From Calothrix brevissima NIES-22 (GTDB lineage: Bacteria; Cyanobacteriota; Cyanobacteriia; Cyanobacteriales; Nostocaceae): 64,000 nt of DNA. The position numbers and the translations under genes were made by a program. The notes under the pieces are model-generated. The model was not told the DNA's origin. It saw only the letters and a program-made list of their open reading frames with translations, and made no database searches. Below are positions 18,801-34,158 of the stretch, in pieces. Where the stretch lies: assembly GCF_002367995.1 (NCBI RefSeq), contig NZ_AP018207.1, positions 5,507,963-5,571,962 on the forward strand, given 5' to 3'. Position 1 is the stretch's first letter. Every line of letters starts with the position of its first letter.

Positions 18801-21707
18801 ATGCTAGCTGAAGAAAATCAAACCAACCCACTCAGTGAATCATATATATTCAAAAATAACGACCCCCTACTACTCGACAACCCAGAAACAATTTGGCTAG
18901 TCAAATCCGGTTCCCTCGCCATCTTCGCCATCAACGTTCAACATGGTATACCCAAAGGAAGACGACGCTATCTATTTAGCGTCAAAGCCGGCGCAGCCAT
19001 GTTTTCCGCTCAATTAAACTCTCCAAACGGACATTATCAAATCCTTGCAGTCGCTTTAGAAGAAACCGAACTATTACAAATTACCAAATCCGAATTTTCT
19101 CCAACCTCCACACCAGAATTAATTGAAAATTGGGTACAACTTCTTAGTTCATCCTTAGCTGAAATTATCTCCCCCAAAATCCCCACACCCGCGAACATTC
19201 CCGGATGTACTATATTAGGCGAAAAAGAAATATTTCAAGCACCACATGACATAGTAGTTTGGGCGCAAATTCTCCAAGGAAAAGGAAATCTATTAGGCTT
19301 AGATAGCTTAGAAATTACTTCCGAAATTGGACGCATTCCTTTATATGGATATCTCTGGTTACAATCTCAAGATGTAATTGAAATTGATGCCCTATCTACT
19401 ACAGATTTAGCCGATACTCATACATTATTAACCGGATTACATCATTTACAAATATTCGTTTTACAAGCAATTTCCCAACTCGAACAACAAGCCAACACCG
19501 CCGAATTAGCTAGATTTCAAGCCAGGGAACGGTTAAATAATCAAGCGATCGCATCTACTCTCGGTAACTTCGCTAACATCTTTGATGCTGACACAACGCC
19601 TACATCCCCCACAAAACCAGCAATCAACCCCGAAGAAGCACTGTTATTTGCGGCTGGTGCAGTAGCAAAAGTATTGGGTATATCTATTCGTCCCCCAGCT
19701 AACTCAGAAGACTTGCGTCGAGTACGCGATCCCTTAGATGCGATCGCACGGGCTTCCCGTATCCGCATCCGGCGCATCACTTTGCGGGATAATTGGTGGC
19801 AGCAAGATAGCGGCGCTTTACTGGCTTATACTGTAGCAGATAACCGCCCAGTGGCACTGTTACCCATTTCAGAGACGCGGTACGAAATTATCGATCCCAT
19901 AGAACAAAAGCGGATAAAATGCGATCGCCAAATCGCTGCAACGATATCGCCTACCGCTTACACATTTTATCGTCCTTTACCAGCAAACCTCAAGGTGCTG
20001 AACTTAATACAATTTGCCTTTAAAGGACGTTCTAAAGAACTAGCGACAATTTTATTAACCGGAATTGCGATCGCATTATTGGGGATGATTACACCCCAAG
20101 CTACCGCCATCCTCATCGATCAAGCCATACCTGATGCCGATAAATCGCTATTGTACCAAATCGCCTTTGGTTTAGCCGCCACAACTCTAGGCGCAACCTT
20201 ATTTCAATTTACCCAAGGCGTAGCGATTATGCGCTTAGAAACCTTTGCCGACACTTCCACCCAAGCGGCAATTTGGGATAAATTATTAAATCTCAAAGCT
20301 TCATTTTTCCGCCAATATTCCATCGGTGATTTAAGCGCTCGTGTTGCTGTTATCAGCCAAATTCGCCAAAAACTCAGCAATACCTTACTCAAAACTTTAT
20401 TTTCCAGCTTCTTCTCCCTGCTAAATTTAGGATTGCTGTTTTACTACAGTCCTTCCTTAGCCTTAATTGCTGTTTTTGTCGCCTTAATTAATATAGCCGT
20501 CACCATTATTTCCGGTATTCTCACCATCCGCAAAGTCCGCCCCTTACTAGAAATGCAAGGTAAACTCTTTGGGATGATGGTACAAATCATTAACGGTGTC
20601 GCCAAATTTCGGACTAATGGCGCACAAGCGAGAGCATTTGCTTACTGGGGTGGGCAATATCGCCAGCAATTACGCTATATGCTCGACGCTCAAAGTATCG
20701 AAGATAATTTGGTAGTAATTAACAATCTTCTTTCCGCCTTAACTCCGGTAATAATTTTTGCCTTCGCCACCAATTTACTGCAACAATCCCAAGCCAATGG
20801 CGGAACTTTTTCTACGGGAACTTTCTTAGCCTTTAATGCCGCATTTGGTACATTTATTAGTGGAGCGACGAGCTTAAGTAGTACCGCCGTCGATATCTTA
20901 GAAGCCCTACCCTTATGGGAACGCGCCCAACCTATCCTCCAAGCCACTCCAGAAGTTGACGGTAGCAAAACTGACCCGGACAGATTATCAGGTAGAGTCG
21001 AGATTAGCCATGTTATATTTCGCTATCGCCCAGATGGCGCACTCACCTTAGATGATGTCAGCTTACGGGCAGAACCAGGAGAATTTATTGCCTTGGTGGG
21101 GCCTTCGGGGAGTGGTAAGTCTACTTTATTTAGATTGTTGTTAGGATTCGACACGCCAGAATCGGGTAGTATTAATTATGATGGGCAAGAACTGTCCGGA
21201 TTAGATGTCAATGCCCTTCGCCGTCAGTTAGGCGTAGTCTTGCAAAACAGCCGCTTAATGTCTGCATCCATCTTTGAAAACATTTCCAGTAACGCTGTCA
21301 TCTCAATGGAAGAAGCTTGGGAAGCCGCGAGAATGGCAGGTTTAGCCGATGATATCGCCGCTATGCCAATGGGGATGCATACCGTAGTGAGCGAAGGGGG
21401 TACAAACCTTTCTGGTGGACAGCGACAACGGTTATTAATTGCCAGGGCTTTGGCATTACGTCCCCGAATTTTGGTGTTTGATGAAGCCACCAGCGCCTTA
21501 GATAACCGCACCCAAGCAATAGTTAGTGAAAGTTTAGAAAAGCTGAACGTTACCCGGATTGTTGTTGCTCATCGCCTGAGTACCATTCGCAACGCCGATC
21601 GCATTTATGTATTGGAAAATGGTAGGTTAGTCCAACAAGGTAACTTTGACCAACTCGCCCAGCAACCAGGATTATTTAACCAATTAATTCAGAGACAGAG
21701 ATTATGA
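18801..21707 (+). CDS. second NHLP bacteriocin ABC exporter (no peptidase)
   Basis: Protein of 968 residues. The long N-terminal region (about 1-390) lacks a C39 peptidase and begins with a cNMP-fold-like segment (IWLVKSGSLAIFAINVQ). Transmembrane helices cluster at about 420-700, followed by an ATPase domain with GPSGSGKST, LSGGQRQR and ILVFDEATSALD. This is the NHLM ABC2 type, usually paired with the peptidase exporter, probably as a heteromeric or accessory pump. ATG at 18801. Confidence 0.93.
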   Translation: MLAEENQTNPLSESYIFKNNDPLLLDNPETIWLVKSGSLAIFAINVQHGIPKGRRRYLFSVKAGAAMFSAQLNSPNGHYQILAVALEETELLQITKSEFSPTSTPELIENWVQLLSSSLAEIISPKIPTPANIPGCTILGEKEIFQAPHDIVVWAQILQGKGNLLGLDSLEITSEIGRIPLYGYLWLQSQDVIEIDALSTTDLADTHTLLTGLHHLQIFVLQAISQLEQQANTAELARFQARERLNNQAIASTLGNFANIFDADTTPTSPTKPAINPEEALLFAAGAVAKVLGISIRPPANSEDLRRVRDPLDAIARASRIRIRRITLRDNWWQQDSGALLAYTVADNRPVALLPISETRYEIIDPIEQKRIKCDRQIAATISPTAYTFYRPLPANLKVLNLIQFAFKGRSKELATILLTGIAIALLGMITPQATAILIDQAIPDADKSLLYQIAFGLAATTLGATLFQFTQGVAIMRLETFADTSTQAAIWDKLLNLKASFFRQYSIGDLSARVAVISQIRQKLSNTLLKTLFSSFFSLLNLGLLFYYSPSLALIAVFVALINIAVTIISGILTIRKVRPLLEMQGKLFGMMVQIINGVAKFRTNGAQARAFAYWGGQYRQQLRYMLDAQSIEDNLVVINNLLSALTPVIIFAFATNLLQQSQANGGTFSTGTFLAFNAAFGTFISGATSLSSTAVDILEALPLWERAQPILQATPEVDGSKTDPDRLSGRVEISHVIFRYRPDGALTLDDVSLRAEPGEFIALVGPSGSGKSTLFRLLLGFDTPESGSINYDGQELSGLDVNALRRQLGVVLQNSRLMSASIFENISSNAVISMEEAWEAARMAGLADDIAAMPMGMHTVVSEGGTNLSGGQRQRLLIARALALRPRILVFDEATSALDNRTQAIVSESLEKLNVTRIVVAHRLSTIRNADRIYVLENGRLVQQGNFDQLAQQPGLFNQLIQRQRL

Positions 21708-21711
21708 TTAG

Positions 21712-21752
21712 TCAATGGTCAATGGTCAATAGTCAATCGTCAATCGTCAATG
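21712..21752. repeat. GTCAATG tandem repeat
   Basis: Six imperfect GTCAATG/A heptads between the second exporter and the cupin gene. STRR-type. Confidence 0.7.
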
Positions 21753-21798
21753 TAGTAGCATCAGATATACAAAGATAGTTCTATCTTGGAAAGCCTGT

Positions 21799-22278
21799 AT
21801 GTCACAAGAAACAAGGCCGATAGCCATCAATGCGGCTGATGTAACAGCAAGGACTAAAGTTTCTAACTATCCTGAACCATTCGCTTCCCGGATGCAAGGA
21901 AGAGAGAAACGTCCACTTGGCGACTTATTTGGACTGACAAACTTTGGTGTAAATCTTACACGCTTAGTACCTAATGCTGTTTCCTCTCTCCGTCACGCTC
22001 ATAGCAAACAAGACGAATTCATTTACATTTTACATGGGTATCCTACACTACATACAGATGAGGGAAATACTGTACTTGCTCCTGGAATGTGTGCAGGTTT
22101 CAAAGCTGGTACTGGTAATGCGCACCATCTAATTAACGAAACTACTGAGGATGTTATCTACCTAGAAGTAGGTGATAGAACTGCGGGAGACGAAGGACAA
22201 TATCCCGATGACGATATTCAGGCTTTACTTGTGGATGGTAAATGGAAATTCATCCACAAAGACGGAACACCTTATTAG
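21799..22278 (+). CDS. cupin domain protein
   Basis: Single-cupin protein of 159 residues. Motif 1 is SLRHAHSKQDEFIYILHGYP (metal-binding His-X-His and Glu) and motif 2 is GTGNAHHLINET. It is of the small ethanolamine-utilisation/auxin-binding-like cupin type, where metal-bound enzymes and sensors both occur. It follows the NHLP exporter by 91 bp in the same direction and may be the last gene of the operon or an independent neighbour. No substrate can be inferred. Confidence 0.88.
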   Translation: MSQETRPIAINAADVTARTKVSNYPEPFASRMQGREKRPLGDLFGLTNFGVNLTRLVPNAVSSLRHAHSKQDEFIYILHGYPTLHTDEGNTVLAPGMCAGFKAGTGNAHHLINETTEDVIYLEVGDRTAGDEGQYPDDDIQALLVDGKWKFIHKDGTPY

Positions 22279-22296
22279 TCAATAGTCATTTGTCAG

Positions 22297-22386
22297 AGAC
22301 GCGATAAATCGCGTCTGTACAATTTTCATTTATCCTCCTTGTCCTCCTTGTCCTCCTTGTCTCCCTTGTCCTCCTTGTCCCCTTTT
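22297..22386. repeat. palindrome plus CCTCCTTGT tandem repeats
   Basis: A 20-base palindrome AGACGCGATAAATCGCGTCT (22297-22316) is followed by seven or so TCCTCCTTG nonamers (22329-22386). Together they fill most of the 200 bp between the cupin gene and the CpcD-like gene. Confidence 0.75.
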
Positions 22387-22483
22387 CCTTATTCTCTCCG
22401 CTTAAAATTAGGAAATACTTCGGTTGTTCATAGATTCAGGTTGATGATAAGTTGCTTACAGCATCTAATTTCAAGGTTATTGT

Positions 22484-22870
22484 ATGGCAAGCACAATCAT
22501 TGATCCTGGCGATTTTAGTGACTATAGCAGTCGTCAAGTGACAATTGAAGTTACAGGGGGTTGTCATCGAGAGTTAATGCGGAAAGCACATTATACGAAG
22601 ACAATTCCATATAATTGTCTGTCGCAAACGATTAAAAGCATTAATCGTCAGGGTGGTAAAATTACCCGTGTTACTTTATCACCTTCCCATCATTCAGGCG
22701 CAACAATTGATTCCCCTGAGTCACTAGTTAAAATCGCTGACAGTGATTTGCTTTCTTCGGCACATGAAGAGATACCAACTTTAGCTCAAGTACAATTAGA
22801 AGAACCAGCGATTCCTGCGGGTGATGCAGTTTCTCACGCAGAAGAGTATTCTTTTAAAGAAGAGTGGTAA
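22484..22870 (+). CDS. CpcD-like domain protein with acidic C-terminal tail
   Basis: Protein of 128 residues. Residues about 17-65 fit the CpcD/small linker domain of phycobilisomes: QVTIEVTGGC, then KTIPYNCLSQTIKSINRQGG and KITRVTL, parallel to TVPYSRMNAQMQRISRLGG of the CpcD at 30025. The remaining 60 residues are acidic and Ser-rich with no known domain, unlike ordinary CpcD or ApcC. It may cap or adapt rods, or use the domain to dock another function onto the phycobilisome. ATG at 22484. Confidence 0.65.
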   Translation: MASTIIDPGDFSDYSSRQVTIEVTGGCHRELMRKAHYTKTIPYNCLSQTIKSINRQGGKITRVTLSPSHHSGATIDSPESLVKIADSDLLSSAHEEIPTLAQVQLEEPAIPAGDAVSHAEEYSFKEEW

Positions 22871-23153
22871 GCGAGCGGTTAATCAATTTTGGATTTTAGA
22901 TTATCCACATAGTTAATTTGAGATTTTGGATTAGCTATACAATAAAATTTCTGGCTATTGAAGCAACTGGAATTGTACAGCTTTAATCCAAAATCCTCAA
23001 TTTTGAATTTTGAATTTAACAATTTTAATTTCAATTTGCTGTATTATATAATGTGTTAATTTCCCCTAATATTTGGGTATTAGGGGAAATTTGCTATCTA
23101 AAAGTAATAAGATTTAGTCAGCATAAAAATAGATTCTCTAGCTTTATATAACT

Positions 23154-23522
23154 ATGCTTCAAATAGATAGAGGTGCATTAAAAGCCAGAAATACATTATT
23201 TATTATGTTTCTGGTGCTTTGTCTTTTAGATATTACCCTAGTAACAATTGCCAGAGATAAATGGGCAATTGGACGTATCTTATTCACAATTGGCGTTATG
23301 TATTTTGTTTTCCAGGGACAGAAATGGGCGAAATGGCTGATGATTGGTATTTGTAGTTTCCTGACTGTGATTTTAGTCACAATGGTGATAGCACTGATTT
23401 CAAAATTATCCAGTTTGCTCATTGTCGGTAGTTTGATAATGGCAGTTCTCAGTGCAGTCATTGCGATTTATATGGCTAATAGCAAAGATTTAAATCGTTA
23501 CTTGATGTGGAAACGTCAATAA
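23154..23522 (+). CDS. small four-helix membrane protein, unknown
   Basis: Unrecognised 122-residue protein with four predicted transmembrane helices (about 12-34, 40-54, 58-82, 86-110) and short basic loops. It lies between the CpcD-like gene and ccaR (convergent with ccaR). No functional motif is visible. Confidence 0.65.
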   Translation: MLQIDRGALKARNTLFIMFLVLCLLDITLVTIARDKWAIGRILFTIGVMYFVFQGQKWAKWLMIGICSFLTVILVTMVIALISKLSSLLIVGSLIMAVLSAVIAIYMANSKDLNRYLMWKRQ

Positions 23523-23590
23523 TGAGAAACAAAATTTAGCTAGACAGTTCTCTAGGTTTGCAACTGCGATCGCTCAATTTACAATTTGAT

Positions 23591-24280
23591 TTAGACACCT
23601 GAGTAATTTTGTTGATTGAGGCGATAACCCATGCTGTGAATTGTCTCAATCAAGTCTTCATTCGCTCCAGCTGCTTTAAGCTTTTGGCGCAAACCCCGAA
23701 TGTGAACCTTGACTACATGTTCTTCTGGTGGTGATTCTAACGCCCAGACATGCTCAATCATCACACGGCGACTGAGAACGCGGCGACCATTGCGTAAAAG
23801 CAATTCTAAGATTCCGTATTCTTTGGGTGTTAAATGAATCGGGGTTTGTCCGTAGCTAACTTCATAGGTACTGGGATTCAGACGCAATTCGCCCCATTCT
23901 AAGATTGGTGGTGATGTTACACATCCGCGACGTAGCAAGGCGCGAATTCGTGCAAACAGCTTTTGTAAATCGACTGGTTTGACTATATAGTCATCTGCTC
24001 CCATATCCAGCCCATTAATTTCATCGTTGATGGTGTCACAGGCGGTGAGCATGAGGATCGGCCAATTATAACCATGCGATCGCAATCGCTGGCAAAGGCT
24101 CATACCATCTAATTCTGGTAACATCACATCCAGCAACAGCAAATCATAATCTAGGGTTTTCGCTTGATACCACCCGGCTTCTCCATCATGGACAACATCA
24201 ACCACATATAGCTGATCGGTTAGAGCTTCTGCCAAGGTTTCTGCAAGGCGCACATCATCTTCAACCAGGAGAATCCTCAT
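23591..24280 (-). CDS. ccaR: CcaR, chromatic-acclimation response regulator
   Basis: OmpR-class regulator of 229 residues from ATG 24280. The receiver has D8-D9, phospho-acceptor D51 (LLLDVMLPELDG) and the Lys in IVKPVD. The winged-helix part has LTPKEYGILELLLRNGRRVL and ESPPEE. It closely matches my memory of Synechocystis CcaR, including PVDLxxLFARxRALLRRGC and LNPSTYEVSY blocks. Phosphorylated CcaR activates cpcL (cpcG2) or phycoerythrin genes in green light by binding a G-box. It is divergent from the cpeR-like gene, with a G-box candidate between them at 24602. Confidence 0.92.
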   Translation of the reverse strand: MRILLVEDDVRLAETLAEALTDQLYVVDVVHDGEAGWYQAKTLDYDLLLLDVMLPELDGMSLCQRLRSHGYNWPILMLTACDTINDEINGLDMGADDYIVKPVDLQKLFARIRALLRRGCVTSPPILEWGELRLNPSTYEVSYGQTPIHLTPKEYGILELLLRNGRRVLSRRVMIEHVWALESPPEEHVVKVHIRGLRQKLKAAGANEDLIETIHSMGYRLNQQNYSGV

Positions 24281-24357
24281 AAAAAATTGCAATTACGTTT
24301 GACTATTCTGCGTCTTTAGACCTGAGATCCCCCCCACAATTTTACTGCGCTTCGTGG

Positions 24358-24460
24358 GTCAATAGTCATTTGTCATTGGTCATTGGTCAATAGTCAATAG
24401 TCAATAGTCATTGGTCATTGGTCAATAGTCAATAGTCAATAGTCATTGGTCATTGGTTAT
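24358..24460. repeat. GTCAATA/GTCATTG tandem repeats
   Basis: About fourteen imperfect heptads alternating GTCATTG, GTCAATA and GTCATTT, in the spacer upstream of ccaR. STRR-type. They separate the ccaR start from the G-box. Confidence 0.75.
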
Positions 24461-24601
24461 ACAAACATCTATCTTCCTTGTGCCCCTTGTCTCCATTCTT
24501 TTATTCATATATCAAATAGGATTGCTACATTTAGCATATTTCGTGACTAATTTTTTCAAATAAATATCACAGAATATTAATATTTATGGATTTTGGTGAT
24601 T

Positions 24602-24623
24602 CTTTCCGATTTCTTTACCGTTT
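24602..24623 (+). promoter_or_regulatory. candidate CcaR G-box
   Basis: Tandem 11-mers CTTTCCGATTT (24602-24612) and CTTTACCGTTT (24613-24623). The first fits the published CTTTNCNATTT G-box half site exactly; the second differs at one base. A weaker third unit, CTTACC, follows at 24625. It lies 320 bp upstream of ccaR and 360 bp upstream of the cpeR-like start. A G-box in front of cpcG2/cpeR-type genes is the known target of CcaR. Confidence 0.75.
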
Positions 24624-24983
24624 TCTTACCAGTTTCCTTACTAGCGGTATGTGATTATTTAGCAGAAGCCTGGAGGAAATAGTAATACAAATTATTTGAA
24701 AGAGGAAAAAATCTCAACTCAAAATTCCTAATGAAATCTTACTTACTTAATTTTTAGTTTTGCATTGGTATAACTTATGCAATTGTCTTTGTCATACCAA
24801 TTGCCAAAATGATGATGCGAGATTGTTTCAGACAGCCTGAGTACAGACAGTCACAAATTCAAAATCTCAAGTCTAAAATTTGCTGTTGAAAATTTCTCAT
24901 TTCAGAAAACTTGATCTGAGATGATTCGCCAGATTCAAAATTTCCCAATCAACGAAAATCCAAAATCCAAAATCCAAAATGGT

Positions 24984-25316
24984 ATGAGTCTCGCGATCGC
25001 TTCCGTTGGAATACTACCATCCACTGCTGAAAAAAAGTTACAAAGCTGGATTCGTAGCCGCCATGTCATTTGTGCTGGAAATTTTTTTATCTTTGAAACT
25101 GTAGACTATACAGCGCTAGAAAGATTTAGTAAATGTATTGCGGCTTTGGGGGGAACAGTAATTTCTGTAGACTCAATTGGTAAATTTTGGATCGGCGATC
25201 ATCGTCAAGTCATTCTCTATCGAGTCAAAGCCAGTTTGCACACTCCTCATCATGACTTAAAAGAATACTGGATGAAATGCGGAAGTTTTCGGACGAGATT
25301 TACTCAACCAATATGA
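24984..25316 (+). CDS. cpeR: CpeR-like regulator of phycoerythrin genes
   Basis: Protein of 110 residues from ATG 24984. The frame opens at 24921, but the first 21 codons are made of AAAATCC spacer repeats and are unlikely to be translated. The core reads KKLQSWIRSRHVICAGNFFI, FETVDYTALERFSK, ALGGTVISVDSIGKFW and QVILYRVKASL, as in CpeR proteins as I remember them. CpeR is needed for cpeBA expression in Fremyella, and Nostoc punctiforme has a CcaR-controlled cpeC-cpcG2-cpeR1 operon. Here it precedes cpcL by 270 bp. No cpe structural gene is in the window. Confidence 0.65.
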   Translation: MSLAIASVGILPSTAEKKLQSWIRSRHVICAGNFFIFETVDYTALERFSKCIAALGGTVISVDSIGKFWIGDHRQVILYRVKASLHTPHHDLKEYWMKCGSFRTRFTQPI

Positions 25317-25328
25317 GTTGATACCAAT

Positions 25329-25372
25329 TTGTCATTCGTCATTCATCATTCGTCATTCGTCATTCGTAATTA
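25329..25372. repeat. GTCATTC tandem repeat
   Basis: Five or six GTCATTC heptads in the 270 bp between the cpeR-like gene and cpcL. STRR-type. Confidence 0.7.
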
Positions 25373-25586
25373 GGTAAATTAGATGCAGGCAAATTGATTA
25401 ATTTATATCTGTTACCTAATTTTTGCTAATTGGTATTAGCAATTTCAGATTGATAATCTTGAATTAGTAAGAATATCCAGGGAAATTACTGAGTTTTAGT
25501 AACACCGTCTTCAGACTTTTCGCTTCATCGAAAATCCTAAATCTCAACTCTAAACAAATCTAAAGTTGTCTAACTGGAGCATCATT

Positions 25587-26342
25587 ATGTCAATTCCTCT
25601 GTTAGAGTATGCACCATTTTCGCAAAATCAGCGAGTACAGGGATTTGAAATTCCTGGTGATGAACAACCCAGGATTTACACTACGGATAATCTCTTAGGA
25701 AATTCCGAAATGGATCAGTTGATTATGGCATCTTACCGCCAGGTATATAACGAGCAACAGATGCTAGATAGCCATCGTCAACGATTTTTAGAGTCTCAGT
25801 TACGGGCTGGTCAAATTACTGTTAGAGACTTTATTCGCGGATTAGTAATTTCTGATTCCTTTAGAAGACTCACTTTTGATAGTAACAATAACTATCGGTT
25901 TGCAGAGATTTGCATTCAGAGGCTTTTAGGTAGGAATGTCTATAGCGATCGCGAAAAAATTGCTTGGTCAATTGTCATCGCTACTAAGGGATTGCAAGGC
26001 TTTATCGATGAATTAATTAGTACGGAAGAATACCTAGCTAACTTTGGCTATGATACCGTCCCTTATCAACGTCGCCGCACTTTACCGCAGCGCAGTCAAG
26101 GGGAATTACCCTTCGCCCGTATGGCGCGTTATGGTGTAGAGTATCGCAATAAACTTCCCGTACCTTTTTATCCCAGTCGTCCCCTTCCCACTGGACTTTT
26201 TGACCAATTTGAGCAGTTTACTTTCTATAAATTCGTCAACCGCGCTAACTGGAATAATACCTTCGTTAGTCTTGCTTTAGCCATAGTATTCATTATCCTA
26301 CTGTTGATGCTTGCTGAGGTTAACTACCAAGTTTGGGGCTAG
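25587..26342 (+). CDS. cpcL: CpcL (CpcG2), membrane-anchored phycobilisome rod linker
   Basis: Linker of 251 residues from ATG 25587 with TGGAGC upstream. The N-terminal PBS linker domain (about 15-180) has [34 protein letters not shown] and [13 protein letters not shown]. The C-terminus is a hydrophobic helix (VSLALAIVFIILLLMLAE, about 225-243) that CpcG1-type linkers lack; this is the hallmark of CpcL, which builds rod-shaped phycobilisomes attached to the thylakoid membrane and feeding photosystem I. It sits between cpeR-like and ccaS and is probably driven from the G-box at 24602. Confidence 0.9.
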   Translation: MSIPLLEYAPFSQNQRVQGFEIPGDEQPRIYTTDNLLGNSEMDQLIMASYRQVYNEQQMLDSHRQRFLESQLRAGQITVRDFIRGLVISDSFRRLTFDSNNNYRFAEICIQRLLGRNVYSDREKIAWSIVIATKGLQGFIDELISTEEYLANFGYDTVPYQRRRTLPQRSQGELPFARMARYGVEYRNKLPVPFYPSRPLPTGLFDQFEQFTFYKFVNRANWNNTFVSLALAIVFIILLLMLAEVNYQVWG

Positions 26343-26448
26343 GGGCTAGAGAAGAGATTTTCTCGCGATTGACTACATTCTAGACGGCATGGCACTGCCC
26401 ATACGTGTCAACTTAATTATGAATGATGAATTATAAATTATGAAATTA

Positions 26449-26526
26449 CCCCACGGATGAATCCGGGGGCTTGATCAAACGATGCTTCGCTCTTATTTGA
26501 TCTCCACGGATGAATCCGGGGGCTTG
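26449..26526. repeat. two hairpin repeats, CCACGGATGAATCCGGGGGCTTG
   Basis: Two copies (26449-26473 and 26504-26526) of a short hairpin sequence (CGGAT/ATCCG stem, then GGGGCTTG). Related hairpins stand at about 45328-45350 and 45390-45412. They resemble terminal hairpins of IS200/IS605-type elements, but no tnpA or tnpB is nearby. Confidence 0.5.
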
Positions 26527-26554
26527 TACCAGATAAATTATGAATTTTTCATTA

Positions 26555-26948
26555 TTCATTATTCATAATTTATAATTTTTGGTCAACTTAATTTGGAACC
26601 CTCATCAGGACTTGATTTTGCCTCAAATCGCCTACCATCAAGATCCGCGTTACCCCACCCCCGTTTTGTCTAAAGCCAAAACGTCCCCTCCCCGTAAACG
26701 GGGAGGGGAAAAAGGGGAGGGGTGAAAAACTTGTGGGGTAAGCGTTTGAACTTAAGTTGACACCAATGTCCATGCCCCTACCATTTGTCGCATTCTTTTT
26801 TCAAATTGGTAAATTTCTCCCTTGTCTCCCTTGTCCTCCTTGTCCCCCTTGTCCCCCTTCCAATAGCAATCAAAATCGCTTCATCCCAACTGCCTTTATT
26901 CCCCCATTTCCCCGATAATAAAAGCATCTACTGGAATTTTGCGCCCTA
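26555..26948. other. spacer with palindromes, upstream of ccaS
   Basis: It contains an AT-rich AATTATGAATTTTTCATTATT palindrome zone, a CCCCTCCCCGTAAACGGGGAGGGG hairpin near 26684-26708, and a CCTTGTC tandem block at about 26818-26858. No gene seen. The promoter of ccaS presumably lies here if it is not read from cpcL. Confidence 0.5.
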
Positions 26949-29594
26949 ATGCTCTTTTTAAAGCAATTTGATATCACTCATATTACCAACATCCTCAGCT
27001 TTTATGGCTTTGGTATAGGGCTGACTATCTTATTGTTTTTAGGTATCTACCTCTTGCACCGACAAATTGTCCAGCGTCAACGGGTAGAGATTTTATTGCG
27101 ACAACAAAGCGATCGCGAACGGTTAGTAACTCAAATTGCCCAGCAAATCAGGCAATCTCTAGATATTGATGAGGTGTTGGCGACAACTGTATCAGAAGTA
27201 CAGCGTTTTCTCCAAGCCGATCGCGTTCTCATCTATCGTCTATGGAATGATGGCACGGGTAGCGCGATTCATGAAACTGCTTTAGCGCCTTACCCTAGAG
27301 TTTTAGGGCATGTATTTCCGGAAGAAGTGTTTCCCCAAGAATATCATCAAGCCTATTCTCTAGGGAAAACCTTGACTATTGCTAACGTTGAGCAAGCGGA
27401 AATTCCCCCTTGTTTGGTGGAATTTGTTCAGCAGTTTGGGGTAAAGGCAAAATTGGTAGTGCCCATTATCCAAGAAAATCGGGAAAATTTGGATTCTGTG
27501 CCCTATCTTTGGGGTTTATTAATTGCCCATCAATGCAGTCAACCCCGTCAATGGGAAGCTTGGGAAGTGGAATTGATGACGCAATTAGCAACGCAAGTGG
27601 CGATCGCAATTCAACAATCAGAACTGTACAATCAACTCCAGCAACTCAATGCCCAACTAGAACAGCGAGTACAACAACGTACCGCCGAATTAGCGATCGC
27701 AAATAGTTATCTACGGGCAGAAATTGCTGAACGTCAGCGCACAGAAATCGCTTTGCGTCACACCAATGACACCTTACAAGCCTTGATTAAAGCTTCCCCA
27801 CGTGCCATTGTGATGTTAGATCGTCAAGGCAAAGTCAAGATTTGGAACCCAGCCGCCGAAAAAATGTTTGGCTGGACTGAAACTGAGGTACTTAATCGCC
27901 CCAATCCCATCAGTTTAGAAGATTATCCCACCTTGCAACAAAATGTTTTACAAGGTAAAACCTATTCCCAGTTAGAATTTCGCCAGCAGAAAAAAGATGG
28001 TACTCCCATCGATATCGTTTTTTCGGCTGCGCCTCTACTGGATACTGACGAACAAATCAACGGTATCGTCGCCGTCATAGCTGATATTAGCGAACAAAAA
28101 CGCCAAGCCGAGCAAGTCCGGTTACTGCAATCTGTGGTGTTAAATACCAACGATGCGATTTTGATTACCGAAGCCGACACAATTAACGAACCGGGGCCGA
28201 GGATTCTTTACGTCAATGAAGCTTTTACCCGCATCACAGGTTATCAACCTGATGAAGTGTTAGGTAAAACGCCGCGCATTTTGCAGGGAGCAAAAACCGA
28301 TCGCCAAGAATTGCAGAAAATTCGCGCCTCTCTAGCTAGGTGGGAACCTGTCACCGTTGAGGTGATTAATTATCGCAAGGATGGCACGGAATTTTGGAAT
28401 GAATTTAGCATTGTGCCTGTAGCTAATCATCAAGGCTGGTATACCCATTGGATTGCAGTGCAACGGGATACTACCAGCCGTAAACAGGTAGAACAGGCGC
28501 TAAGACAAAGTGAAGAACGTTGGCGATCGCTCATCGAAAATGCTCTGGATATCATTATGATTCTCGATCCCGATGGTACGATTAGCTACGTTAGCCCCTC
28601 AGTGCAAAAAATCTTAGGTTATGCGGTTGGCGATTTGGTAGCTAACAATGTCATGGCATTGGTGCATCCTGATGATATCGCGATGATTGGCGATCGCCTC
28701 ACAAATACCATCCCCAATCCCGAACTCACCCGCCCCATTGAGTTTCGCTACCGCCATCAAGATAATTCTTGGCGGATTTTAGAAGCCATTAGTCAACCCT
28801 TTGTGGATAGTGTCGCCACTCTGCGAATCATAGTGAACGCCCGCGATATCACCGAAAGAAAGCGACTCGATGAAATTCACCTAGCACTAGAAAGAGAAAA
28901 AGAACTCAGCGCTTTAAAAACCCGCTTCTTTTCTATGGCTTCCCATGAGTTTCGTACCCCCCTCAGCATCGCCTTAGCTGCGGCGCAAGTTCTGGAAAAC
29001 TGTCGCGATGAATGGGAGACTTCCGCCAAAAGACTGCGAAATCTGCAACGGATTCAAGATTCTGTGAAGCACATGGTGCAGCTACTCGATGATATTTTAA
29101 CTATCAATCGCGCTGAAACTGGCAAGTTGGCATTTAATCCCCAAGCTTTAGATTTAGAACTATATTGCCGTGATTTTCTCGACCAAATGCGCGAAAGTGT
29201 GGGTAGTCAGCACAATCTCCGCTTTAGCTGTCAAGGACAATCTGCCCTTGTCTGCATGGATGAGAAATTATTGCGCTCCATGCTGTCTAACTTACTTTCC
29301 AATGCCATTAAATATTCCCCCACAGGCGGGGTAGTAAATCTAAGTTTAGAATTTCAGTCAGATCGGCTGATATTAGCAGTACAGGATCGGGGAATTGGGA
29401 TGTCACCAGAGGATCAAAAGCAATTATTTGAACCCTTTCATCGCGGTAAAAATGTACGCACTATTCCCGGTACAGGATTGGGACTAGTTGTCGTAAAAAA
29501 ATGTGTAGATTTACACCAAGGTACAATTCACATCACCAGTGAGGTAGGAATGGGTACTACCTGCTTAGTAACAATACCGTTGCTTAGGTGCTAG
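26949..29594 (+). CDS. ccaS: CcaS, green/red cyanobacteriochrome histidine kinase
   Basis: Sensor kinase of 881 residues. One N-terminal membrane helix (about 17-36) is followed by a GAF chromophore domain (63-225) with canonical bilin Cys155 (IPPCLVEFVQQFGVKAKLVV). Next come PAS1 (273-385), PAS2 (390-512), PAS3 (520-637), HisKA with phospho-acceptor H666 (SMASHEFRTPL) and HATPase_c (SNAIKYSPTGG, DRGIGMSPEDQ, GTGLGL). Sequence blocks match Synechocystis CcaS, but that protein (753 residues) has two PAS domains; PAS3 here is an addition. It phosphorylates CcaR in response to green light. It lies next to cpcL and near ccaR, as expected. Confidence 0.93.
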   Translation: MLFLKQFDITHITNILSFYGFGIGLTILLFLGIYLLHRQIVQRQRVEILLRQQSDRERLVTQIAQQIRQSLDIDEVLATTVSEVQRFLQADRVLIYRLWNDGTGSAIHETALAPYPRVLGHVFPEEVFPQEYHQAYSLGKTLTIANVEQAEIPPCLVEFVQQFGVKAKLVVPIIQENRENLDSVPYLWGLLIAHQCSQPRQWEAWEVELMTQLATQVAIAIQQSELYNQLQQLNAQLEQRVQQRTAELAIANSYLRAEIAERQRTEIALRHTNDTLQALIKASPRAIVMLDRQGKVKIWNPAAEKMFGWTETEVLNRPNPISLEDYPTLQQNVLQGKTYSQLEFRQQKKDGTPIDIVFSAAPLLDTDEQINGIVAVIADISEQKRQAEQVRLLQSVVLNTNDAILITEADTINEPGPRILYVNEAFTRITGYQPDEVLGKTPRILQGAKTDRQELQKIRASLARWEPVTVEVINYRKDGTEFWNEFSIVPVANHQGWYTHWIAVQRDTTSRKQVEQALRQSEERWRSLIENALDIIMILDPDGTISYVSPSVQKILGYAVGDLVANNVMALVHPDDIAMIGDRLTNTIPNPELTRPIEFRYRHQDNSWRILEAISQPFVDSVATLRIIVNARDITERKRLDEIHLALEREKELSALKTRFFSMASHEFRTPLSIALAAAQVLENCRDEWETSAKRLRNLQRIQDSVKHMVQLLDDILTINRAETGKLAFNPQALDLELYCRDFLDQMRESVGSQHNLRFSCQGQSALVCMDEKLLRSMLSNLLSNAIKYSPTGGVVNLSLEFQSDRLILAVQDRGIGMSPEDQKQLFEPFHRGKNVRTIPGTGLGLVVVKKCVDLHQGTIHITSEVGMGTTCLVTIPLLRC

Positions 29595-29714
29595 GGGCAT
29601 TGGGCATTGGTGTCACCTGAAGTTGATACCATTACCTAGAATCGATTGGGAAATATAGATTTTCATCTGTGTTTGTGGGTGTTTCCCATTAATTTTGCTG
29701 AGTGCTGAGTTGCT

Positions 29715-29747
29715 AGATCCCCGACTTCTTCAAGAAGTCGGGGATCT
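29715..29747. repeat. 33 bp perfect palindrome
   Basis: AGATCCCCGACTTCTT, one C, then its exact reverse complement. It is a dispersed palindrome type common in Nostocales intergenic DNA. It lies 120 bp after ccaS and could also act as a transcript end, but there is no T run. Confidence 0.75.
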
Positions 29748-30024
29748 GAATTTGAATTGCCAGGAACTTCTCAGGTTAATTCCCACACACGCAAAACCCA
29801 TACATTTTCTAGTTGCAATTTTTACTATCTTGGATAGAATGTTGACGAGTGATTTTAATGACAAAATTTCTTGACTTTGTAGTCAGATACTGAATTTTTC
29901 AACCCATCACTTTTAATGGCATCAAAAATAGATTCTCACTCTATTGTATTAGTCTTGCTTTTAACTTTTGACTTTGCTGCAACTACTATTCCGCAAAACT
30001 CATCCAGGGGAGATAATAAAATTA

Positions 30025-30306
30025 ATGTTTGGTCAAACTCAACTTAGTACTGGTAAATTGTCTGCATCTGCCAGTCGGCTCTTTCGTTACGAAGTTGTTG
30101 GCTTACGCCAAACCTCAGAAACTGAAACATATAAATTTGGCATTCGTAATAGTGGGAGCGTATTTATTACCGTGCCCTACAGTCGGATGAATGCCCAAAT
30201 GCAACGTATTAGTCGTTTAGGCGGCAAAATTGTCAATATTGAGCCATTGACTTTCGGCATTTACGATCCTTCTTGCGTACCCTACCGTGGTGGTAGTAGG
30301 CGTTAA
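30025..30306 (+). CDS. cpcD: CpcD, phycocyanin rod-capping linker
   Basis: Protein of 93 residues from ATG 30025 (GGGGAG 12 bases upstream). The frame is open from 29968, but MFGQTQLSTGKLSASASRL is the family start. The CpcD domain has LFRYEVVGLRQ, SGSVFITVPYSRMNAQMQRI and LGGKIVNIEPL. It terminates phycocyanin rods. It forms a pair with the cpcG gene 133 bp downstream. Anabaena-type genomes usually keep cpcD in the cpcBACD operon, so a cpcD here, apart from cpcBA, is noteworthy. Confidence 0.93.
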   Translation: MFGQTQLSTGKLSASASRLFRYEVVGLRQTSETETYKFGIRNSGSVFITVPYSRMNAQMQRISRLGGKIVNIEPLTFGIYDPSCVPYRGGSRR

Positions 30307-30439
30307 GGTTTCTGCGTTGCTGAACTCATCAATTAAGTTATGTAATTTTTATTAAACTAAATCGAATAATGTCCCCCTTGTCCTTTATGATTATGAGAAA
30401 TTTGTAAGATTTCATAAAGGAAAGGGAGATTTTGTATTC

Positions 30440-31195
30440 GTGGCAATTCCTCTTTTAGAATATTCCCCTATTTCTCAAAACCAACGGGTAAAAGGTTTTG
30501 AAGTTCCTGGTGATGAACAACCCCGGATTTTCTCAACCGAGAACCTCCTCTCTGCAACAGACTTAGACATTCTCATTGAAGCTGCTTATCGTCAGATTTT
30601 CTTCCATGCTTTTGCAGCAGATCGCGAGCGGTTTCTAGAGTCTCAGCTACGCAATGGTCAAATTACAGTCCGTGACTTTATTCGCGGTTTGCTGTTATCT
30701 AACACCTACAAGCGTAGTTTCTACAACCTCAACAGCAACTACCGTTTTGTTGAACAGACTGTACAACGGGTTCTCGGTCGTGATGTTTACGACAATCGGG
30801 AAAAAATTGCTTGGTCAATTGTTGTAGCTACAAAGGGTATTCAAGGTTTTGTTGACGCTCTGCTCAACACTGATGAATATCTCTCAGCTTTTGGCTATGA
30901 CACCGTACCTTACCAACGTCGTCGGGTATTACCCGGTAGAAAAGAAGGTGAAACACCTTTCAACATCAAGTCTCCTCGCTACGATGCTTACTATCGTGGT
31001 AAATTAGGCTTCCCACAAGTTATTTGGCAAACTACAGTTCGCCGCTTTACTGCACCCGAACGGAAGCCTACAGCAGGTAACCCAGCTCTGTTCTTAGAAA
31101 TGGCTCAGAGCATTAACCCAGTAGGTAACCCACCACAACGCCTCTCAGTACAAAATATTGATATCGAAAAATCAGTTCCCTATCGTCGTAAATAA
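30440..31195 (+). CDS. cpcG: CpcG, phycobilisome rod-core linker
   Basis: Linker of 251 residues; GTG start at 30440 with AAAGGGAGA upstream. The PBS linker domain is nearly identical in outline to CpcL at 25587 ([52 protein letters not shown]). The C-terminal segment is polar ([18 protein letters not shown]) without a membrane helix, so it is the conventional CpcG1-type linker joining rods to the allophycocyanin core. It is downstream of cpcD. Confidence 0.93.
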
Positions 31196-31283
31196 GACGA
31201 ATTAGAACGATTTAAGAAATTAGTAAAGCGTATGTCGCACCTGGATTAAGATACGGCATACGCTATCTCGAAAGATCTACAAA

Positions 31284-31394
31284 AGACTTCTTGCATAAAT
31301 ATTGTCGCTGTGTTGATTAATCATTTGAAAAGCTCACGCAAAGGCGCAAAGGCGCAAAGAAGAACGCGAAAATTAGGACTTTTGCAAGAGGTCT
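31284..31394. mobile_element. MITE-like element, family B, copy 1
   Basis: 111 bp with imperfect terminal inverted repeats (AGACTTCTTGCA at the left, TGCAAGAGGTCT at the right). The centre has GCTCACGCAAAGGCGCAAAG. A longer copy is at 51601-51737. No coding capacity. Confidence 0.8.
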
Positions 31395-31422
31395 AAAGAA
31401 GATAAAAGGCGATCGCATTTAA

Positions 31423-31842
31423 TTAAGCACATTCATCATTTTCAGCCTGAAATCCTAGTTCCAGTAAAGCTTTGCGTAATTTTGCCTTAGAAGGACGGAC
31501 TTTCGGCACAGCTAACCCCAATTCTCGCGCCGTTTCAAATAAATCCCGCATCAAAATATCCAGGGAAATATCATTTGCTTCTTCTGGAAGTTTTTCAATT
31601 CTCGCTTCGTAGGCTAAAGTATACAATTCCAAGTGATGTTTCCCCATAACTCTCGCCAGCTTTCTCAAGGTTTCCGGCGTCGGACAGGTTCCCTTAAAGC
31701 AAGCACCCCGCAGTCGAGGTTGAGGAACACCAGACAAATCCGCCAGACGATTCATACTGATACCTTGTTCTTCTAAATATTGAAGAATGTATCGTCCGAG
31801 AGGTGAGCAATCTTCAGCTTTTATTTGCAACCTTGCTGGCAT
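31423..31842 (-). CDS. helix-turn-helix (XRE-like) protein
   Basis: Protein of 139 residues from ATG 31842. An HTH_3/XRE-like domain occupies about 15-70 (LGRYILQYLEEQGISMNRLA, SGVPQPRLRGACFKG, TPETLRKLARVMG). The C-terminal half is helical and unrecognised. It probably binds DNA; target unknown. It lies alone between cpcG (convergent, with a MITE between) and the pabB fusion. Confidence 0.75.
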   Translation of the reverse strand: MPARLQIKAEDCSPLGRYILQYLEEQGISMNRLADLSGVPQPRLRGACFKGTCPTPETLRKLARVMGKHHLELYTLAYEARIEKLPEEANDISLDILMRDLFETARELGLAVPKVRPSKAKLRKALLELGFQAENDECA

Positions 31843-31989
31843 TGTTCGCAATGAGGAAAATCAGAATATTTACAATATAGCGGACTGCTAGATCCAACCT
31901 AGACCAAGTTAGAAATTACTTGACCTTTCCATACATAACTTATCGCATTTAGTACCAAAGGTTAACATAACTTTGTACAAAATCTGTAG

Positions 31990-32031
31990 GTCATTTGTCA
32001 TTTGTCATTTGTCATTTGTCATTTGTCATTA
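31990..32031. repeat. GTCATTT tandem repeat
   Basis: Six GTCATTT heptads directly after the 3' end of the pabAB gene; the neighbouring CCCTTGTCT repeat block (32038-32075) lies inside the gene's last codons. Confidence 0.8.
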
Positions 32032-34158
32032 TTCTTCTTTGTCCCCCTTGTCTCCCTTGTCTCCCTTGTCTCCCTTCCCTACCCCATGCCCCATCGCCTC
32101 AATTAAAGCTTGTGCTTTCAGCATAGTTTCTTGAAACTCCATTTGCGGATCGGAAAGGGCGACAATTCCGCCACCGATACCAATAGAAGTTTGTTGTGGC
32201 GTGAAAACAGCCGTCCTGATGACAATATTTAAATCAGCTGCACCATTTAAGCCTAAAAAACCGATCGCACCAGAGTAAACTCCCCGCGCTTGTTTTTCTA
32301 AGCGATCGATAATTTGCATGGTGCGAATTTTCGGTGCGCCAGTCATCGAACCGCCGGGGAAGGAAGCGCGAATACAATCGACAGCATGTAAATGCAATCG
32401 CAACTTCCCGCGAATTGTCGTCACTAACTGATGTACAGTGGCGTAGGTTTCTACATCCATTAATTTGGGTACGTGAACCGTACCAACTTCACAAACTCGC
32501 CCCAAATCATTGCGTAATAAATCGACAATCATCAAATTTTCCGCCCTGTCTTTTTCGCTGTGACGTAGCTGTTCGCGTAATAAAAAATCAGCTTCGGGGG
32601 TTTCTCCGCGCGGTAGGGTTCCTTTAATTGGCTTGGTTTCCACCCAACCTTGACAATCGATCCGCAGAAATCTTTCCGGCGATGAACATGCGATCGCTAA
32701 ATCGCCAAAGCGCAAAAATGCTGAGTAAGGCGCAGGGTTGATTTTACGTAACTTACGGTAGAAATTCAACGGGTCGGGAGTCGCATCAGTCTGTAGTTGA
32801 TTTGTTAAACAAACTTGATAAGTTTCCCCTTCGTGAATTTCTCCCAAGCAATGATGAATATCTTGAATGTAAGTAGCGCGATCGCGATGTAGGCGAAATT
32901 CAAGAGGCTGTTGATTATTCTGGGGTACAATCTCAGGCAGAGGCGCAAGATTTTCTAATTGTTGTTGAATATCATCAAACCAAGTTTCTGGCTGTTGGGT
33001 TTGTCCTTTTTTGACTAATTGCAGCAAATAAAGACACTTTTGTTGGTGGTCGATCGCAATTACGCGATCGGCAAGTAGGAAAATAGCATCAGGTAATGGT
33101 GAAGTATGTACTAATTGCGATCCACATTCTGCCTTAAGTTCATAACCAAAATAACCAACAAATCCACAGTTAAAATCAAACGGTAATTCCGCAGATTGAC
33201 AGCGCCGTTGATCAATTTCTCGCTGAAGATAATCAAATATACTTTCCTGGCGATGAGTAATAGTATTTGATTGAGTAATAATTAATTCTTGGGTTTGGGT
33301 ATGATAGCGCACCATTAAACTATTTACACCGCTACTATCACCCATAAACGAAAATCGAGCCAGACCGGATTCTACCAAGCTACTATCTAACCAAAAAGCA
33401 TTAGCTGAATCTTGAAAAAGCTGTACAAATATTTGTTCTGTATCGGGAAATATATCTAACTTGCGCGTATACAATTCAAAATTTAGTGGCTGTTTTGGCT
33501 GTGATTCATCAATTAAATTACTCACAGATCCATATCCTGACCAATAATATTTTTTTTGACTTCTCGATGATTTATGTGTAAATTTTCGCGTAATTTCCCG
33601 AAAATTTCTCAGCAATATTTGTCCATATTCTGTACAGATAGATTCTGGATGAAATTGTACGCCCCAAAAAGGTAAATCTCGATGACGCAATCCCATGATT
33701 AATCCATCTGCTGTCCAAGCAATTTTTTCTAAACAATCTGGTAGTTCATCAGCTACTAATAACGAGTGATATCTAACCACAGAAAAATCATCGGGAATTC
33801 CTTGGAATAATGCGTCATGATTATGATAAATCTTGCTAATTCTGCCATGTCTCACTTCTGGCGCATAAATCACCTTACCGCCATAAAGATAACCCAATCC
33901 TTGATGACCAAGACATACTCCCAATAAAGGTACATCAACATTTTCAATTATTTGCCGACAAACCCCAAAATCTGCTGCTTTTTCTGGACGCCCAGGGCCC
34001 GGAGAAATCACCACATTATCAAATGCAATTTCTTTTAATTCCTCCCAGAAAACTTTATCGTTATAAATTACTAAAGGTAATTCACCATTCACCTCAGCAA
34101 TCATCTGGTAAAGATTAAAAGTATAAGAATCATAATTATCAATAATTAATGTACGCAT
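32029..34158 (-). CDS. PabA-PabB fusion, aminodeoxychorismate synthase
   Basis: Protein of 709 residues from ATG 34158 (MRTLIIDNYDSYTFN). The N-terminal class I glutamine amidotransferase (about 1-190) has catalytic Cys in LLGVCLGHQG and HPES. The C-terminal chorismate-binding domain (about 240-690) has PIKGTLPRGE and PGGSMTGAPK. The Lys in PIKGT is the feature of aminodeoxychorismate synthases; anthranilate synthases have PIAGT. It makes 4-amino-4-deoxychorismate for folate. The last 16 residues (GKGDKGDKGDKGDKEE) are encoded by a CCCTTGTCT tandem repeat that has extended the frame. Confidence 0.92.
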   Translation of the reverse strand: MRTLIIDNYDSYTFNLYQMIAEVNGELPLVIYNDKVFWEELKEIAFDNVVISPGPGRPEKAADFGVCRQIIENVDVPLLGVCLGHQGLGYLYGGKVIYAPEVRHGRISKIYHNHDALFQGIPDDFSVVRYHSLLVADELPDCLEKIAWTADGLIMGLRHRDLPFWGVQFHPESICTEYGQILLRNFREITRKFTHKSSRSQKKYYWSGYGSVSNLIDESQPKQPLNFELYTRKLDIFPDTEQIFVQLFQDSANAFWLDSSLVESGLARFSFMGDSSGVNSLMVRYHTQTQELIITQSNTITHRQESIFDYLQREIDQRRCQSAELPFDFNCGFVGYFGYELKAECGSQLVHTSPLPDAIFLLADRVIAIDHQQKCLYLLQLVKKGQTQQPETWFDDIQQQLENLAPLPEIVPQNNQQPLEFRLHRDRATYIQDIHHCLGEIHEGETYQVCLTNQLQTDATPDPLNFYRKLRKINPAPYSAFLRFGDLAIACSSPERFLRIDCQGWVETKPIKGTLPRGETPEADFLLREQLRHSEKDRAENLMIVDLLRNDLGRVCEVGTVHVPKLMDVETYATVHQLVTTIRGKLRLHLHAVDCIRASFPGGSMTGAPKIRTMQIIDRLEKQARGVYSGAIGFLGLNGAADLNIVIRTAVFTPQQTSIGIGGGIVALSDPQMEFQETMLKAQALIEAMGHGVGKGDKGDKGDKGDKEE

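Follow-up and report, generated by a model that had tools for sequence, protein, structure and literature searches.

We present the analysis of a locus of the cyanobacterium Calothrix brevissima NIES-22, at which a green/red light-sensing system stands next to genes of the light-harvesting antenna. The window, i.e. the whole stretch of 64,000 nucleotides (nt) that was analysed, contains an intact CcaSR module consisting of ccaR, a tandem G-box, cpeR, the gene of the membrane-anchored linker cpcL, and ccaS. All five parts were found by domain searches, a scan for the G-box and sequence identity, which confirms a preliminary description of this DNA that had placed them together; its gene order, with cpeR ahead of cpcL and no cpeC at the locus, is real as well, cpeC being located elsewhere in the genome. 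Throughout, G and L numbers denote genomes and loci, respectively, C1 is the contig of the source genome, and all other coordinates are window positions. The features of the module, followed by two neighbouring genes, are:

23591-24280, minus strand: ccaR, an OmpR-type response regulator (Response_reg and Trans_reg_C domains)
24602-24623, plus strand: tandem G-box, the predicted CcaR site, CTTTCCGATTTCTTTACCGTTT; sole exact match in the genome
24624-24983, plus strand: putative -35/-10 promoter region and leader, marked by conservation beyond the 22 selected letters
24984-25316, plus strand: cpeR of the CcaSR-linked clade, a member of the family of phycoerythrin gene activators, 110 residues (identity and tree)
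25587-26342, plus strand: cpcL, rod-membrane linker (PF00427 and a C-terminal hydrophobic helix)
26343-26948, plus strand: spacer of 606 nt between cpcL and ccaS with direct and inverted repeats (repeat search)
26949-29594, plus strand: ccaS, membrane-anchored green/red cyanobacteriochrome histidine kinase (GAF, PAS, HisKA, HATPase_c)
30025-30306, plus strand: cpcD, rod-capping linker, a neighbour of the module (NCBIfam rod_cap_CpcD, 122.1 bits, cut-off 80)
30440-31195, plus strand: cpcG, rod-core linker, a neighbour of the module (PF00427, without a strong hydrophobic helix)

CcaS has the architecture of the sensors of CcaSR systems, namely an N-terminal hydrophobic stretch followed by GAF, PAS stretches, HisKA and HATPase_c. 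Its GAF domain has its best solved relatives in 8k9o ('histidine kinase') and 7ckv (RcaE). The residues Glu, Cys, Leu and Lys are identical in 38 of 38 aligned rows; these rows comprise the window sequence and RcaE, some loci of one genome enter twice, and short matches were omitted. We take these four residues to be the green/red set of RcaE. The accessible part of PMC8112840 holds no match for them. The OmpR-type regulator that stands beside ccaS in CcaSR systems is encoded by ccaR, whose product is 96% identical over 225 residues to that of L050 (Tolypothrix sp. FACHB-123) and 90% identical to that of G077, both of which lie beside the same G-box. For CpcL, the best hydropathy value of a 19-residue segment is 2.95, located in the C-terminal helix, versus 1.26 in the neighbouring cpcG; the combination of PF00427 with such a helix is what characterizes CpcL in the portion of PMC9415938 available to us. 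Between the G-box and ccaS, neither cpeC nor cpeD was found among the window's genes and domains; the module thus lacks the phycoerythrin linker of operons of chromatic acclimation type 2 (CA2) or of the Nostoc punctiforme type. Every gene of the module is an open frame, and a comparison with L050 indicates purifying selection on all four of them: the ratio of nonsynonymous to synonymous substitution rates (dN/dS) is 0.11 for cpeR, 0.14 for cpcL, 0.03 for ccaR and 0.08 for ccaS.

The window CpeR gave no match in Pfam, NCBIfam or PHROGs, CpeR being without any Pfam family; its assignment is based on sequence identity and a tree. It is 65% identical to the product of the final gene of the cpeC-cpeD-cpeS-cpeT-cpeR operon (cpeCDSTR) of the same genome, and it clusters with CpeR proteins encoded in operons of the cpeC...STR type, a grouping that had been named beforehand as the test of its identity. 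The start at 24984 agrees with the alignment to L050. A tree built from 48 different CpeR proteins places the window copy in a supported set of five (96/92) together with those of L050, G077, G065 and G302, all of which sit at CcaSR loci, whereas the genome's other CpeR groups among copies beside cpeT. Because they are placed on separate branches, the two proteins are old paralogues; a recent duplication of the genome's other cpeR was considered as the origin of the window gene and rejected upon the position of the latter in the CcaSR-linked clade. Note that rows outside a G-box operon were labelled as cpeS-cpeT type by default, even where these genes are not visible (L053, L055), and that the CcaSR label requires 5 changes on the tree, such that the split of the labels is not clean. 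A structure model of CpeR, built from 8 sequences, is poor (mean predicted local distance difference test score of 59.4), and Foldseek found no match to it at an E-value of 0.001 or better. A fold similar to the CpcD linker in the middle of CpeR (residues 31-67) reached an hhalign probability of 23% over 34 columns and is not claimed; a deeper CpeR alignment could reveal descent from a linker.

The window was scanned with CTTTNCNATTTCTTTNCNNTTT, a loosened pattern of what we take to be the G-box consensus. CTTTCCGATTTCTTTACCGTTT is its sole match at up to 2 mismatches, compared with a mean of 0.09 in 100 shuffles, 9 of which contained at least one match. Nor does an exact match occur anywhere else in the genome of 9,257,480 bases, where the next best sites, four in number, carry 2 mismatches each; the pattern read backwards gave 12 genome matches at up to 2 mismatches. 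The second half-site deviates by one base from the presumed consensus, by which the window carries, as CcaSR systems do, a tandem G-box ahead of an antenna operon. Among the 38 sites detected in an order-wide scan, 14 have the same 22 letters as the window. In an alignment of four cpeR-type loci with a mean identity of 66%, the columns surrounding the G-box (40-82) are invariant at 41 of 43 positions, and across the 46 distinct sites picked out by the pattern, conservation reaches beyond the chosen 22 letters to TTTC-TTAC and TATG-like stretches, as would be expected for -35 and -10 elements. We infer a transcription start near 24665. An attenuator-like structure in the resulting leader of about 320 nt was rejected, as the folding is no better than that of shuffles (z-values of 0.27 for the window and -0.73 for L050), and a search of positions 19000-33000 with Rfam gave no match. 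Ahead of the G-box, heptamer-based tandem repeats occupy 24358-24476.

The preliminary description had suggested looking for cpe or pec genes in the remainder of the genome. Both cpeBA and cpeCDSTR with the second cpeR were found. CpeA and CpeB score above the NCBIfam cut-offs, and cpeBA lies at C1:243577-244704. The linker genes cpeC and cpeD (C1:6828211-6829861) are part of cpeCDSTR, which stands beside rcaE and rcaF; RcaE is encoded at C1:6832595-6834718, followed by RcaF. RcaC (C1:5194191-5196119) possesses two receivers, Trans_reg_C and Hpt. Based on what we assume to be the L-box consensus of RcaC, L-box-like sites precede a phycocyanin operon (exact, C1:5192599), cpeC (1 mismatch, C1:6830119) and pcyA (1 mismatch, C1:6835242); a site with 1 mismatch precedes cpeC also in G077, G321 and G111. 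With RcaE, RcaF, RcaC and presumed L-boxes ahead of cpeC and a cpc operon, the genome holds the components of a CA3 system. The earlier reading of the locus was sound with respect to the intact module and incomplete in that it took account of neither this Rca system nor the second cpeR. A second CpcL gene is located at C1:5013738-5014508 on the minus strand, and the genome scan at up to 2 mismatches detected no G-box match near it. The pebAB genes are found at C1:6822538-6824108 (L005:16539-18109), and pcyA occurs in two copies, one beside rcaF (L006:9307-10047) and one near rcaC and a phycocyanin operon (L113:10965-11762).

To see how common the layout is, relatives were scanned. The exact pattern occurred in 35 of 388 genomes of the order, with 2 matches for the backwards control, and a stricter form in 20 of 217 genomes of the family. 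After removal of four genomes without the usual CcaSR locus from the 35 (G165, G170 with two sites, G317 and G140) and with five shared genomes counted once, 46 genomes (31 + 15) remained; G302, whose G-box has 1 mismatch, and L050, in whose genome RcaE was not searchable, stand outside this set. As a class, the G-box adjoins ccaR in 44 of the 46, the stretches of G138 and G166 being without ccaR. The combination of cpeR and cpcL without cpeC or cpeD is present in three of these genomes, the source genome (G000), G077 and G388, and additionally in L050; the layout is uncommon, not unique. All three counted genomes carry RcaE. The remaining operon types comprise cpcL without cpeR, cpeR without cpcL, cpeC-cpeD-cpeR with or without cpcL, cpcL-cpeD-cpeR, and cpeC-cpcL-cpeR, the last corresponding to the order cpeC-cpcG2-cpeR1 that the preliminary description gave for N. 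punctiforme and that we assume here. Two G-box operons hold a phycobiliprotein pair which is 60-66% like phycocyanin and is possibly phycoerythrocyanin. In G077, a single contig of 51.8 kb (C113; L124, L125, L189) contains rcaC, rcaE, cpeC-D-(D-like)-S-T-R and the entire CcaSR module. On a short contig of Richelia intracellularis (L056), cpeR is followed by cpcL and the beginning of ccaS, this cpeR apparently having an in-frame stop.

The content of the G-box operons appears to differ between genomes with and without RcaE. In a hand-compiled count, in which partial RcaE matches (G189, G138, G388) were scored as present and matches of 44-54% in frames of 1227-1607 residues (G065, G137, G272, G424, G427) as absent, 1 of 10 RcaE-bearing genomes has cpeC or cpeD in the G-box operon, versus 25 of 36 other genomes (p = 0.001); for cpcL the counts are 9/10 versus 15/36 (p = 0.011) and for cpeR 4/10 versus 32/36 (p = 0.003). 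Two of the entries carry a caveat: the contig of G419 stops about 2.9 kb past the G-box, and G272 is 82% complete. Counted by genus, the linker values are 1/7 versus 9/13 (p = 0.057); in the 15 genomes added later they are 0/3 versus 7/12 (p = 0.2), the idea having come from the first 31. We regard the rarity of the linkers among RcaE carriers as a lead, not a result. A sharing rule that would account for it is tentative and, in our judgement, falls somewhat short of an even chance: where RcaE and RcaC are present, the CcaSR operon would yield the phycoerythrin linkers to RcaC and keep cpcL, with or without CpeR, such that CcaSR sets the rod-shaped antenna. According to this rule the window represents the variant in which cpeR was retained, and the two CpeR paralogues of the genome, one per sensor, would therefore constitute a two-input gate for phycoerythrin. 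Since cpeR was found in 4/10 versus 32/36 genomes, its retention is the less usual state among RcaE carriers.

From gene content, domains, the G-box and its conservation, the paralogy of CpeR and the presence of Rca – all read from the sequence – we consider it probable that the intact CcaSR drives cpeR and cpcL, that Rca drives the linkers, and that both converge on phycoerythrin. For the direction of phosphorylation we follow published relatives, in which CcaS acts as a kinase of CcaR under green light and as its phosphatase under red light, the phosphorylated form of CcaR being the activator of the operon (PMC12461855, as far as accessible). By analogy, CcaS of C. brevissima would phosphorylate CcaR in green light and take the phosphate off in red light. 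Phosphorylated CcaR would then bind the predicted G-box at 24602-24623 and start a transcript of cpeR and then cpcL, perhaps running into ccaS; this transcription unit we infer from the layout. CpeR and CpcL would thus be produced together in green light. CpcL would anchor rods, giving membrane-bound rod-shaped phycobilisomes, and the window CpeR would raise the phycoerythrin genes (cpeBA), adding to the CpeR of the Rca-linked operon. This presumed target is that of CpeR of Fremyella diplosiphon, which is encoded in an operon of the cpeC...STR type and activates cpeBA, according to the accessible part of PMC4443024. While the window cpcL would answer to CcaSR, the linkers belong to cpeCDSTR behind an L-box-like site; because they are located there, beside rcaE and rcaF and with their own cpeR, the two green/red sensors may converge via the two CpeR paralogues.

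Several observations weigh against this interpretation. The genome contains 72 L-box-like sites with up to 2 mismatches, compared with 6 in the backwards control, and of the 8 that deviate by at most 1 base only 3, the ones examined, are placed ahead of antenna or bilin genes. RcaE-bearing relatives have incomplete modules: G395, of the same genus, has an exact G-box, cpcL and a 15-codon stub resembling the end of cpeR, and the roughly 10 kb downstream at its locus L223 gave no ccaS match; in G321, where ccaS gave no match either, ccaR and cpcL are accompanied by a G-box that deviates at 2 positions; G111 has cpcL only. Finally, cpcL and ccaS may have promoters of their own, since the spacers ahead of them (270 and 606 nt, the latter compared with about 90 nt in L050) are long and rich in repeats.

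Among the alternatives, a retargeting of the window CpeR fares best, although we deem it unlikely. The CpeR of cpeCDSTR would serve cpeBA, and the CcaSR-linked copy would act elsewhere or tune something linked to rod-shaped phycobilisomes. The age of the paralogues, which occupy well separated branches and are both kept in G000 and G077, agrees with this idea, as does the scarcity of cpeR in the G-box operons of RcaE-bearing genomes. However, the paralogues are still 65% identical, and 49 columns are invariant among 8 CpeR proteins of both kinds. Moreover, in genomes that lack RcaE, such as G383 and G466, no antenna gene other than that of CpeR was detected behind the G-box, which would be expected if CpeR is sufficient for controlling phycoerythrin. 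There is, further, a slim chance that CcaR drives cpeR alone, the inserted spacer having given cpcL its own promoter and split the unit: the 270 nt of repeat-like sequence between cpeR and cpcL correspond to only 13 nt in L050, but the spacer of G077 is also roughly 185 nt long, the gene order is kept in L050, G077 and G388, and the genome offers no further G-box-like site below 2 mismatches. That the module is a fading relic, Rca controlling phycoerythrin and CcaSR being lost in the lineage with its output no longer of importance, is very improbable, because the window genes are all open with low dN/dS and the G-box is exact, even if the damaged or incomplete modules of G395, G321 and G111 and the missing G-box match in G396, G397 and G398 (same genus, RcaE-bearing) would fit.

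In the vicinity of the module, cpcG adjoins the cpcL module, and the locus therefore pairs two rivals for rods. PF00427 was detected at 13 places in the genome, the window cpcG being the sole one of the rod-core type as judged by position and length; a cpcG near the module or its remains is also found in L050, G077, G388, G321 and G111, in the first three on the downstream side. A CpcD/allophycocyanin linker domain (39.9 bits against a cut-off of 27) is carried by the small protein encoded at 22484-22870, just upstream of ccaR. The repeats separating cpcL from ccaS (26343-26948) include nested inverted ones.

Our preferred interpretation implies that CcaSR stands beside a complete Rca system in one genome, with targets that are apparently divided and a CpeR for each switch. 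It allows one to ask in which way the inputs of two green/red sensors are integrated by a cell for one pigment and bears on why CcaSR operons vary so much among strains, for which the G-box pattern is a specific handle across genomes. The preliminary description had seen in the order of the genes a different arrangement tying phycoerythrin-type control and cpcL to one switch. The order stands; the principle is not new, given that one CcaSR controls phycoerythrin genes and cpcL in N. punctiforme ATCC 29133 (PMC12461855, accessible part) and that L050, G077 and G388 share the layout. In the literature covered, which includes PMC4424290, PMC9415938, PMC12461855, PMC8634303, PMC8112840, PMC4443024 and PMC3937721, no description of cpeR-cpcL without cpeC was found; this coverage is partial and does not include Hirose et al. 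2019 (Mol Plant 12:715), the likeliest source. For strains with CcaS and RcaE, namely Calothrix sp. NIES-2100, C. brevissima NIES-22 and Calothrix sp. 336/3, PMC9415938 reports phycoerythrin, lists two CpcL genes and predicts CA1+CA2+CA3; the accessible portion of its main text does not mention cpeR.

Compared with known systems, the window resembles N. punctiforme ATCC 29133 in combining CcaSR with an operon of phycoerythrin genes and cpcL; it differs in that the operon is without cpeC, cpeR precedes cpcL, and an Rca system is present in the genome. Synechocystis sp. PCC 6803 (CA1) likewise has CcaS, CcaR, G-box and cpcL, but is without cpeR, and its rods hold phycocyanin only (both according to the accessible part of PMC12461855). 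Geminocystis sp. NIES-3708 (CA2) shares CcaS, CcaR and cpeR in a light-regulated operon, which has cpeC and is without cpcL (PMC4424290). Like F. diplosiphon with RcaE/RcaF/RcaC and cpeCDESTR (CA3), the source genome has RcaE, RcaF, RcaC, cpeCDSTR and L-box-like sites; here, however, Rca is a second system at other loci, and no cpeE was seen in cpeCDSTR. The closest counterpart is L050 of Tolypothrix sp. FACHB-123, where ccaR, G-box, cpeR, cpcL, ccaS, cpcD and cpcG follow in identical order, with tighter spacing and with rcaC and pcyA preceding the module by 4-7 kb.

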